Source: Terriglobia bacterium (GTDB taxonomy: Bacteria; Acidobacteriota; Terriglobia; Acidiferrales; UBA7541). Taken from it: 64,000 nt of DNA. The stretch covers positions 62,001 to 126,000 of the forward strand of contig JAIQFB010000010.1 of NCBI GenBank assembly GCA_020073485.1. The letters are read 5' to 3'. The position numbers and the translations under genes are program-made. The notes under the pieces were generated by a model. It was not told where the DNA came from and ran no database searches. It worked only from the letters and a program-made list of their open reading frames with translations. Positions 13,206 to 55,468 of the stretch are shown piece after piece. Positions within the stretch are counted from its first letter, which is position 1; every line of letters starts with the position of its first letter.

Positions 13206-13290
13206 TTCGATGCACTTCCACTCAATGAGATTTCTTCCCTGCCGCCATCGACAGCGTGCGGTGCGGGCGGATTCCCGCGAACAAACGAAA

Positions 13291-13340
13291 AAAATTTAAC
13301 ACCGAGGACACGGAGAAAACACAGAGGGCACAGAGAAGAG
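13291..13340 (+). repeat. 'CACAGAGG-CACAGAG' intergenic repeat
   Basis: AACACCGAGGACACGGAG, AAAACACAGAGGGCACAGAG and AAGAG follow one another. The unit ACAGAGG(N)CACAGAG is a widespread dispersed bacterial repeat. A close relative lies in frame inside yggS at 54891-54953; read in one frame this copy would give FNTEDTEKTQRAQRR, comparable to DFNTEGSEITEDIEKSRERE in that protein. Confidence 0.75.
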
Positions 13341-13345
13341 CGGAG

Positions 13346-39560: not shown

Positions 39561-40835
39561 ATGCGAGTAATGAAATCGTCTATCGTCCTTTGGGTCCTGC
39601 TGTTCAGTTCCGCGGCCTTCGCTCAGAATCAGCCGCCGGTTGCCGAAGCCGGGCCGGACATGACGGTCATCCTCAATCAGAATGTCAGTTTAAACGGCAC
39701 GGCTTCCTACGACCCCGATGGCGATCAAATTATGTCCTGGGATTGGGAGGTCGTGACAGTGCCGGCCGGTGCTGCCTCTCCGCTTCAGGGTGCTGACACG
39801 CCGAAACCACTGTTTACTGGTAATGTGATCGGAGACTACATCCTCAGCCTTTCCGTTTTCGACGGACAATTCTGGAGCGCACGGGACTTTCTCACCGTCA
39901 CCGTCGCGGTAAACCAACCGCCAGTGGCGGTGATTGAAGCCACACCCACGAGGGGCGCGGTTCCGCTGACCGTCTACTTCGACGGGAATAAGAGCTACGA
40001 CCCCGAGGGCGGCGCAATACAATTCTTTTGGCAGTTCGGTGATGGTGGCAGTTCAGCGTTGCCGTTACCTTCACACACCTACACAGAGGCCGGAACCTAC
40101 GTGGCAACTCTGACAGTCACGGACCCCTTAGGGGCTCAAGACCAAAATACTGTTGCGATAATCGTTTTTCCGCCTATCAACCAACCGCCGGTGTGCAGCC
40201 CGACGGCAACGCCCAACGCAGGTCAAGCTCCGCTTACGGTCCAGTTTGCCGCCAACGCATCGGATCCCGATGGCGATCCGCTGACCTTCACGTGGACCTT
40301 TGGTGACGGCGGGACAAGCACCGCGGCGAACCCGGTCCATACCTACGTTCAGCCCGGCAATTATATACCTGAGCTCACAGTCTCCGACTCCATGGCTTCG
40401 GTTTCCGCTTCCCTCGTCATAGCGGTCGGCTCGTCCCTCACAATGAGCGTTCTGCGTGCCGAGATAGATTACAAAGGCGTTAAGAGTACTACCGCCAGTG
40501 TGAAACTCACGGCAGATTTCGCCGGAGTCACTCCGCAAGGAAACGATGTGCTTGCAATTAGCGCCGATGGGGTCAGCCTCTTTGCCGCGCCCTTTTCCAG
40601 GTTTGAGGTTTTGCCCAGCGATCCGAACTCGTTCAAACTGAAATTGGGGAATGACGCAGTGGTGATGCTTGACCTCGCGACACCCCAGATCACATTTGTT
40701 GGCCGGAACTTGAATATGGCTGGCGTAGACCTCTCCAACGGACTTGATGTGCAGCTCACTTTGGGGCAGGCGATCGCCGTGGATAACGTGGCGTTAGTGC
40801 TAAAGCCGAGCCGCCAGTATATCTATATTGATTGA
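39561..40835 (+). CDS. exported protein with PKD domains (element cargo)
   Basis: 424 residues with a signal peptide (about 1-21, MKSSIVLWVLLFSSAAFAQ). A PKD/Ig-like domain at about 24-117 (VAEAGPDMTVILNQNVSLNGTASYDPDGDQIMSWDWEV) is followed by two classical PKD domains (EATPTRGAVPLTVYFDGNKSYDPEGG...FFWQFGDGG and SPTATPNAGQAPLTVQFAANASDPDGD...FTWTFGDGG). The C-terminal 130 residues are a beta-rich unassigned domain. PKD domains mediate protein or glycan binding outside the cell. GGAG lies about 8 bases upstream of the ATG. It is an unexpected gene for a phage-like element and may be host-directed cargo. Confidence 0.8.
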   Translation: MRVMKSSIVLWVLLFSSAAFAQNQPPVAEAGPDMTVILNQNVSLNGTASYDPDGDQIMSWDWEVVTVPAGAASPLQGADTPKPLFTGNVIGDYILSLSVFDGQFWSARDFLTVTVAVNQPPVAVIEATPTRGAVPLTVYFDGNKSYDPEGGAIQFFWQFGDGGSSALPLPSHTYTEAGTYVATLTVTDPLGAQDQNTVAIIVFPPINQPPVCSPTATPNAGQAPLTVQFAANASDPDGDPLTFTWTFGDGGTSTAANPVHTYVQPGNYIPELTVSDSMASVSASLVIAVGSSLTMSVLRAEIDYKGVKSTTASVKLTADFAGVTPQGNDVLAISADGVSLFAAPFSRFEVLPSDPNSFKLKLGNDAVVMLDLATPQITFVGRNLNMAGVDLSNGLDVQLTLGQAIAVDNVALVLKPSRQYIYID

Positions 40836-54240: not shown

Positions 54241-54522
54241 CTAATCAAGCAGCGACCGGATCATTTCCGGGGTCACGCCGCGAATTTCCACGCGTTTGGT
54301 GCGGCTGTGTTCGCCTGAGGCGATTCTAACAGCCGCCAGTGGCACTTTCAAACGCGATGCCAGCAACTTGCGCAGGGCTTCGTTGGCGCGGTCATCGATG
54401 GGCGGCGCGGTCAGGCGGATTTTCAGGCCATCCTGGTATTCGCCGGCGATTTCGTCGCAGCTGGCCCGCGGCTGCACGCGGACTGAGAAAGTTATGGCGC
54501 CGTTTTTTTCGGTGACTTGCAC
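54241..54522 (-). CDS. YggU family protein (DUF167)
   Basis: 93 residues, GTG start. FSVRVQPRASCDEIAGEYQDGLKIRLTAPPIDDRANEALRKLLASRLKVPLAAVRIASGEHSRTKRVEIRG contains the family signature: V-x-P-x-A-x2-x-I-G, then LTAPPxDGxAN with Asp here, and GxxSRxK. The fold is small alpha/beta, cytoplasmic, of unclear function, often near yggS and yggT. Two bases separate it from yggS. A 43-base gap follows before pepP. Confidence 0.88.
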   Translation of the reverse strand: MQVTEKNGAITFSVRVQPRASCDEIAGEYQDGLKIRLTAPPIDDRANEALRKLLASRLKVPLAAVRIASGEHSRTKRVEIRGVTPEMIRSLLD

Positions 54523-54524
54523 GG

Positions 54525-55307
54525 CTAAACTTTTCCCCGCTCGCCGAAAAGAGCGGTACCCACGCGGATTTCGGTCGCGCCCTCCTCGATGGCCACCTCG
54601 AAATCGTGTGACATTCCCATGGAGAGGACCGGGAGGAGATTGTTCCCTGCTTCCGCCCGGATCGCGTCGCGCAACTCCCGCAGGCGGCGGAAATAAGGGC
54701 GCGCCTTTTCAGCGTCGTCGAAATAGGGCGGCACACCCATCAGGCCGTGCAATTCCAGATGAGGAAACCGCAGCACGGCTTTCACCAGAGGCGCCAAATC
54801 CTCGCCGCTCACTCCGGATTTTGTTTCCCCGGGATCGAGCTTCACTTCGATCAGCACGCGCAGCCGCGCGGTCTTGCTTCGTTCGATTCCCTTTTCTCTT
54901 TCTCTGCTTTTCTCTATGTCCTCTGTGATTTCCGAGCCCTCTGTGTTGAAATCTTTCCTTGCCCGGTCGAGTCTTTCCGCGAGATCGGCGCTGTCCAGGG
55001 AATCGATGGTGTCAAACAGCCGCACCGCCTTCGCCGCCTTGTTGCTTTGCACGTGCCCTATCATGTGCCAGACCGCATCGAGGCCGGAAAGGTGGGCGCG
55101 CTTGGCCTCCCATTCCTGCACGCGATTTTCGCCGAAATGGCGCACGCCCACGTGGTAGAGGTTCCGGATTTGAGCGGCGGAATGCGTCTTTGAGACGGCG
55201 ATGAGTGTTATCTCCTCCGCGCCACGCCCCGCTCGCGAGGCCGCATGGTCGATGCGCTCGCGCACGCGCGACAAATTGTCCGTGACTTCGCTCGACTCGC
55301 TGCTCAT
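54525..55307 (-). CDS. PLP homeostasis protein YggS/PROSC with in-frame repeat insertion
   Basis: 260 residues. The PLP-binding TIM-barrel is recognisable: LIAVSKTHSAAQIRNLYHVG with Lys40, HFGENRVQEWEAK, WHMIGHVQSNKAAKAV, LIEVKLDPGETKSGV, ELHGLMGVPPY, LSMGMSHDFEVAIEEGATEIRVGTALFG. It buffers pyridoxal 5'-phosphate in the cytoplasm. The protein is about 28 residues longer than usual: residues about 118-146 (DFNTEGSEITEDIEKSREREK and a little more) interrupt the barrel before VLIEVKLD, and their DNA is a copy of an intergenic repeat also at 13291-13340. Confidence 0.93.
   Translation of the reverse strand: MSSESSEVTDNLSRVRERIDHAASRAGRGAEEITLIAVSKTHSAAQIRNLYHVGVRHFGENRVQEWEAKRAHLSGLDAVWHMIGHVQSNKAAKAVRLFDTIDSLDSADLAERLDRARKDFNTEGSEITEDIEKSREREKGIERSKTARLRVLIEVKLDPGETKSGVSGEDLAPLVKAVLRFPHLELHGLMGVPPYFDDAEKARPYFRRLRELRDAIRAEAGNNLLPVLSMGMSHDFEVAIEEGATEIRVGTALFGERGKV
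54891..54953 (-). repeat. CACAGAGG-type repeat inside yggS
   Basis: On the minus strand the DNA reads GATTTCAACACAGAGGGC, TCGGAAATCACAGAGGAC and ATAGAGAAAAGCAGAGAAAG in succession. The CACAGAGG units and the order AACAC-AGAGG-CACAGAGGACA-AGAGAAA match the intergenic repeat at 13291-13340. It is 63 bp, i.e. 21 codons (D119-K139), and keeps the frame. Confidence 0.8.
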
Positions 55308-55383
55308 CGCGCAAATTCTAGCATGCGCTTCCTTAAATCTTTTCCCCCATTCGGCACCACCTAGTTTGGAGCCGCTGGTTTTT

Positions 55384-55419
55384 GTAGGACAGGCATCGGC
55401 CTCGGCGGACCTGCCCTAC
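55384..55419. repeat. palindromic repeat (GTAGGACAGG type)
   Basis: GTAGGACAGG and CCTGCCCTAC pair at 9 of 10 positions around a 16-base loop. It is a short member of the GTAGC-RCAGGC family and sits between the divergent yggS and tmk genes. Confidence 0.6.
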
Positions 55420-55468
55420 TGCTTCCTTGCGGCAATCGGGGGAGCACGTTAGACTTGCCCTTCAAATC

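Follow-up and report, generated by a model that had tools for sequence, protein, structure and literature searches.

An in-frame copy of a dispersed repeat within yggS of a Terriglobia bacterium, and related repeat DNA in other genes of the class

Most documented cases of bacterial genes that captured dispersed repeats in frame come from Rickettsia and from enterobacterial RU elements. The first-pass annotation of a 64,000-nucleotide stretch of DNA from a Terriglobia bacterium (the window) claimed that extra residues of YggS, encoded at 54870-54956, derive from a repeat that also lies between genes. Is this segment truly repeat DNA, when did it enter the gene, and do other genes carry the same repeat? 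The features on which these questions turn are as follows.

54525-55307, minus strand: yggS (PLP homeostasis protein, COG0325), 260 aa including the insert (open reading frame; TIGR00044, E 9.1e-57; model compared with 7u9h)
54864-54956, minus strand: lengthened linker, residues 118-148, exceeding that of uninserted relatives by about 23 residues (protein and PDB sequence alignments)
54907-54956, minus strand: part of the insert recognisable as the CACAGAG repeat, a single arm in the acidic NTE..ITEDIEK frame (nhmmer, E 4.7e-9)
54241-54522, minus strand: DUF167 (yggU-like) gene, directly downstream of yggS with zero intergenic space (open reading frame; TIGR00251, E 1.2e-25)
13286-13345, plus strand: intergenic copy of the same repeat, used for comparison (sequence; score 49 to the yggS insert; flanking proteins in common with a G005 repeat locus, L001/L174)

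The yggS product matches TIGR00044 over residues 8-257 (model positions 4-229 of 229) with 192 bits against a cut-off of 106. Its linker measures 31 residues in the protein alignment against 8 in uninserted relatives, and 30 residues against 5 when aligned to the PDB sequence of E. coli YggS (1w8g). The PLP lysine K40 together with S229-S233, D235, R248 and G250 are invariant in a 46-sequence alignment, and all are present in the window protein. An AlphaFold model (pLDDT 92.3) keeps the TIM-barrel fold of YggS, with E. coli YggS 7u9h as the best PDB match (TM 0.92 by target length, rmsd 2.0). In this model the first half of the insert prolongs helix 107-135 and is followed by a low-confidence loop; the mean pLDDT values for residues 121-150 are 73, 54 and 76. 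The annotated coordinates were right within a few bases (54864-54956 was found), and the claim that the insertion keeps frame and spares the PLP motifs held, as the frame is open and K40, S229-S233 and D235 are present. Placing the insertion in a barrel-surface loop was roughly right: the model does show a low-confidence loop, but part of the insert extends a helix.

Eighty relatives of yggS were fetched, of which L046 was not assessable at the linker. A window-type segment occurs in L031 and L032, L038 has a few extra residues, and L042 (G017) carries a much longer, unrelated insert at the same linker position. Inspected by eye, the different and much longer in-frame insert in the yggS linker of L042 and L130 (G017) has no similarity to the CACAGAG repeat.

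At the DNA level, the yggS segment is a copy of the dispersed repeat. The insert aligns to the intergenic copy at 13291-13345 with a local score of 49. When the rest of the 64 kb was scored in 2538 windows of 101 bases, the maximum was 29. We also built an HMM from 64 repeat copies of the window's genome (G000) and the same-genus genome G005, leaving out the yggS copies. When 16 yggS genes were searched with this model (nhmmer), positions 352-401 of the window gene matched model positions 3-52 with an E of 4.7e-9. The match extends into AAAGATTTCAACACAGAGG, which is the element's 5' end and non-coding. Together, the alignment score and the HMM match confirm that the extra YggS residues are repeat-derived. 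The 8-mer CACAGAGG alone is weak evidence, being found 4 times in the window against 1.41 expected, a count that 6 of 100 shuffles reach, and its occurrence at 40082 was rejected as a repeat copy.

An alignment of 93 instances defines the repeat as 5'-AAAGRYTTTAA(CACAGAGGA)n-3', roughly 50 bases long, with usually 2 to 4 of the 9-base units CACAGAGGA per instance and GAGAAA at the end. The strict 16-mer CACRGAGGNCAYRGAG matched 32 times in G000 (5.05 Mb) and 51 times in G005, versus 0 matches of the reversed control in either genome. A relaxed 24-mer search of G000 returned 75 matches versus 1 for the control. Across a class survey of 250 genomes, 102 had at least one strict match (maximum 69 per genome) and the reversed control matched 20 times in total. 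Additionally, at least 120 stretches in IMG/VR contain a related 19-mer. Rfam at gathering thresholds matched tRNA alone in the 64 kb, with no curated RNA family for the repeat, and we found no paper describing it in a literature searched mostly without subscription journals.

The 161 clusters from six genomes comprise 83 inverted pairs and 78 single arms. The pairs of G043, G111 and G083 all have their TTAA ends on the outside, and both orientations occur in G000, G005 and G249. The three paired copies tested fold as strong RNA hairpins (z -10.2, -7.6 and -8.1) that no shuffle equals, whereas the yggS copy is a single arm without a second arm and folds no better than its shuffles (z -0.36). 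One locus, L395 (G043:C62:52504-52564), shows the 9-base unit in a longer, perfect run with six overlapping strict matches, which suggests unit expansion.

How old is the yggS copy? Five other genomes of the genus were searched, and the four with a yggS match (G001, G002, G003 and G005) all have the lengthened linker; G004, which is 71% complete, gave no yggS match. The 26 other genomes aligned at the linker are without the genus-type lengthening, though some have other inserts. The reading frame is unbroken in all five genus genomes with a yggS match, and the insert starts similarly in each (K/R-D/E-F-N/A/S-T/A-E). Insert length is equal in G005, G003 and G002, with G000 9 bases longer and G001 shorter. 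This distribution agrees with the lineage-specific insertion that had been predicted (four of four matched same-genus genomes against 26 others without it), and points to a genus-specific segment that probably dates to the genus ancestor or close to it.

Similarity to the repeat is not uniform among these inserts. The HMM matched the G005 insert with an E of 2.7e-9, and the strict 16-mer is present there twice. The G003 insert matched weakly (E 0.0087), and those of G002 and G001 gave no match among the 16 yggS genes searched; therefore, repeat ancestry in these three rests on position. Because similarity drops step by step, from G005 and G000 to G003 and then to G002 and G001, we infer that the inserts of G002 and G001 are decayed repeat. 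The first-pass annotation had held that a segment shared by all close relatives with unrelated DNA would speak against its interpretation. All four matched relatives do share the segment, and in two of them, G002 and G001, its DNA can no longer be recognised as the repeat, which is half of that outcome.

We compared the window yggS with that of G005 by the NG86 method. For the two flanks pN was 0.143 and 0.085, as against 0.247 for the insert, and dN/dS was about 0.15 and 0.13 in the flanks versus about 0.6 in the insert, the latter from 27 codons only. By these substitution patterns, the flanks are under purifying selection and the insert is relaxed, which indicates a translated gene under constraint.

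Very probably, then, the insert is a fossil single arm of the dispersed repeat that entered yggS in or before the genus ancestor and has been translated since. An element of roughly 50 bases would have entered the gene in or before the common ancestor of the genus, and several properties may have made it tolerable. The 9-base unit equals three codons, so that gain or loss of a unit would keep frame; the T-E-D/G-T-E frame is stop-free and would give a soluble acidic peptide; a single arm would form no hairpin to disturb translation; and the landing site would be a surface linker that in relatives also accepts other inserts. Once captured, the segment would drift until its likeness to the repeat is gone. 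Under a different history, which we regard as unlikely, a longer and unrelated YggS linker was already present when the genus arose, and insertion or gene conversion later wrote the repeat into it in an ancestor common to G000, G005 and perhaps G003. Such a history would suit the linkers of G001 and G002, similar in length and without repeat similarity, as well as the unrelated inserts at the same place in YggS of G006, G017 and others, but it fits poorly with the equal insert length in G005, G003 and G002, the offset of G000 by exactly one 9-base unit, the similar insert start in all five genomes and the gradual fading of repeat similarity. It is very improbable that the insert was recruited for a function, such as a regulatory or binding tail, and kept by selection: it evolves faster than its flanks, shows no recognisable conservation between G000 and G001 or G002, and has low model confidence at residues 121-150, despite its persistence in all five genus genomes without stop or frameshift and the helix that the model continues through its first half. 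We give almost no credence to coincidence, in which an acidic T/E-rich linker resembles the repeat at the protein level. Acidic linkers with ordinary codons do exist, for example in RNase R of G238, but this account is already contradicted by a DNA-level match that reaches the non-coding 5' end AAAGATTTCAACACAGAGG; moreover, nothing else in the 64 kb approaches a score of 49, and a genome-wide search with the reversed pattern gave 0 matches.

The fossil-arm reading leaves the question of how the repeat spread. Among 30 fetched G000 loci, 17 of 25 repeat clusters have flanking proteins common to a G005 repeat locus (the ambiguous L027 was left out of this count), and therefore the intergenic copies are largely inherited too. 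We used this protein test after setting aside a nucleotide test of shared G000 and G005 sites, in which the repeats aligned to each other. No mobility gene was found regularly beside the repeat in 20 fetched regions with 21 Y1 genes; a repeat lies within 1 kb of 3 of these 21, and three of the regions had been lengthened in view of a repeat already known to be close. Strong Y1 transposase matches (E up to 1e-17) are present in 15 of 20 repeat-rich versus 6 of 26 repeat-free genomes, in a chosen sample uncorrected for kinship. The Y1 transposase was therefore set aside as the mover, being enriched in repeat-rich genomes but with genes not flanked by the repeat, and we claim no link. It seems quite improbable that a REP-type element was moved by a REP-associated Y1 tyrosine transposase and that yggS took an active insertion; that enrichment and the resemblance of the inverted pairs to BIMEs are what one would expect of such an element, but the scarcity of repeats near Y1 genes (3/21) is not, the known REP end tags, GTAG and CGTC, are absent from the repeat consensus, and most G000 repeat loci are common to G005 and not new. 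For the way the repeat multiplies, our likeliest guess is a non-autonomous element that would have been moved in trans in the past and survives mainly between genes. Of the earlier proposal that the repeat can move into genes and be tolerated in frame, tolerance is supported, with other genes behaving likewise, but movement finds no support in a yggS segment of about genus age, in the 17 of 25 clusters shared with G005 and in the lack of a mobility gene regularly beside the repeat.

The yggS copy is the sole genic one among all strict copies examined in G000 (25 clusters and 2 further strict places on C45). Checking 19 loci from the relaxed 24-mer search of G000 revealed no further genuine repeat that a coding frame crosses; two loci from this search, L580 and L581, were rejected as ordinary coding sequence in which the pattern match falls on the opposite strand. 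Over copies in G000 and G005 we examined 10 long open reading frames, in which the Pfam matches AP_endonuc_2, dnaX domains and APH each lie beside the repeat and none across it. We then considered 173 clusters, consisting of those in G000, G005, G249, G043, G111 and G083 plus 12 clusters of other genomes. Five lie within a gene with family support: YggS (G000 and G005), arginyl-tRNA synthetase (ArgRS; G249), RNase R (G083) and a type ISP methylase (G083). This genic share, 5/173, is far below the expectation from random insertion into a mostly coding genome. An apparent internal copy in L434 (G111), without a Pfam family, was not counted, nor were most copies scored as N- or C-terminal by automated classification, which were unsupported.

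In-frame capture of the repeat has occurred in other genes of the class as well, most clearly in the ArgRS linker and in RNase R. The ArgRS linker of G249 reads AKALTTEVTEGTEEGN and matches the DNA HMM with an E of 5.5e-8. Further HMM matches were obtained for the ArgRS linkers of G267 (9.1e-5) and G089 (7.4e-4), and repeat DNA is recognisable by eye in those of G258, G282 and G218, the last from the window's own family. The captures fall in two families, f11 and f1. The repeat is absent from ArgRS of G283 (same genus as G249), G000, G003 and G005. Across 22 ArgRS linkers, those of related genomes being non-independent, T/A codons before E are xCA in 19 of 43 cases versus 219 of 2200 outside the linker. 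In RNase R, the strict 16-mer lies within the gene of G083. The codon test for RNase R linkers is weak (xCA 4/19 versus 117/1659 elsewhere, p 0.04), and RNase R of G249 gave a weak HMM match (E 0.0045). As a recurrent landing site, RNase R is firm in G083 only and unestablished in G089, G266 and G238. The acidic linker of G238 RNase R has ordinary codons, so that a TE-rich linker need not come from the repeat. The copies in YggS, ArgRS and RNase R use the same acidic frame, the methylase copy uses an antisense frame, and the phage ORF L288 may use the HRG frame of the repeat. In L435 (G083), near 1501, the methylase repeat adjoins a second palindrome-like stretch, GGCACGACTTTAGTCGTGCC.

The repeat contributes to coding at gene ends as well. 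Any repeat match was present in 10 of the 80 yggS loci, and 8 of these are other acidobacterial loci where yggS has the repeat at its 3' end. In 7 of these 8 the yggS stop codon (TAA or TAG) lies within the 5' end of the repeat itself. In IMG/VR contigs, the repeat stands directly behind the start codon and in frame (MK-LTTEDTEDTE...) in different genes, at loci chosen for this frame.

L056, L059, L065, L072, L100, L106 and L108, near 2670-2720: 3'-end repeat supplying the yggS stop
L245:9424-9666 and L250:1121-1360: start-codon repeat, DUF551 proteins
L251:9939-10985: start-codon repeat, nuclease-like protein
L257:142-477 and L298:2941-3297: start-codon repeat, further IMG/VR genes

Some of these start-codon repeat genes have a clear ribosome-binding site upstream. 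Counts of frames open for more than 100 codons at the IMG/VR loci (17 of 66 for the TAA frame versus 4 and 15 for the other frames) are too mixed to build on.

Read by eye, the repeat probably encodes signal peptides in two kinds of protein, M1-like peptidases and a family 5 solute-binding lipoprotein. In G083 and G111 (L211:1417-1560 and L418:1500-1600) an antisense arm encodes the hydrophobic stretch ...LCVLCGSAFA..., a putative signal peptide, and the protein behind it resembles Peptidase_M1 with a score under the Pfam cut-off. The signal-like N-termini of homologs from other genera are different, but LCVLCVLCG recurs in G265. In G111 (L411:1490-1570) a whole inverted pair, reading HRGHRG...FFVLCVLCGLLFFGC, stands before a family 5 solute-binding protein (E 5.1e-93). 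L528 is listed with L211, L418 and L411 among the loci where repeat DNA seems to encode signal peptides.

A joint reading, which we offer only tentatively and hold to be somewhat less probable than its opposite, is that the repeat may be a recurrent coding donor. Its three-codon unit and stop-free acidic frame would give in-frame linkers of housekeeping enzymes in at least two Acidobacteriota families, its antisense LCVLCG signal peptides, and its TTAA end stop codons, with use at start codons in phage-like contigs; the hypervariable linkers of ArgRS, RNase R and YggS would be landing pads for several unrelated repeat families in turn.

Among known systems, the repeat works like the Rickettsia palindromic elements (RPEs) without being one. 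Like RPEs, as characterised in PMC10969869, it is short, dispersed between genes and found in frame inside unrelated protein genes at tolerant sites, giving a recognisable peptide; the likeness was judged by description. Unlike RPEs, which are about 100-150 bp, ORF-bearing and found in Rickettsia, it is built on a 9-base unit and resides in Acidobacteriota, its genic yggS copy is one arm without a palindrome, and genic copies are few (1 of the G000 strict clusters). The RPE parallel drawn for this locus thus fits the paired intergenic copies but not the yggS copy, a single structureless arm. Enterobacterial RU/ERIC elements, also compared by description, share the fusion to ORFs (PMC2759123), but in that paper such fusions lie mainly at gene ends with none inside conserved domains, whereas the repeat described here sits within conserved enzymes, in internal linkers of ArgRS and YggS. 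Similar to REP/BIME and REPIN sequences, the repeat is dispersed and frequently arranged as inverted pairs with strong RNA folding; it differs from them in having no regular Y1 transposase gene link, in its 9-base tandem substructure and in its copies inside genes. It resembles MITEs in being short, non-autonomous, class-wide and present in IMG/VR contigs, with inverted arms in the paired form, but no parent transposase was identified and single arms are common (78/161 clusters).

In-frame repeat capture outside the documented groups is called conceivable in a review (PMC10969869). The present case adds a series that can be traced, in a free-living, large-genome lineage (soil Acidobacterium), from the intact repeat to a linker no longer recognisable as such, and it shows that essential enzymes have undergone captures of this kind too. 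The origin of variable linkers and signal peptides becomes directly testable with existing genomes.

Other sequences of similar appearance were encountered along the way. The linkers of L450 (G278 argS), L501 (G111 RNase R) and L502 (G258 RNase R) contain sequence resembling what we take to be other, unrelated dispersed repeats; the examples are a GGCGGACA...TGTCCGCC palindrome read as VGRTLLSA, then GGVILSE and GGTPALR. Lastly, just upstream of yggS in the window, an inverted-repeat-like stretch at 55383-55421, GTAGGACAGGC...CCTGCCCTAC, possibly represents another dispersed repeat family.
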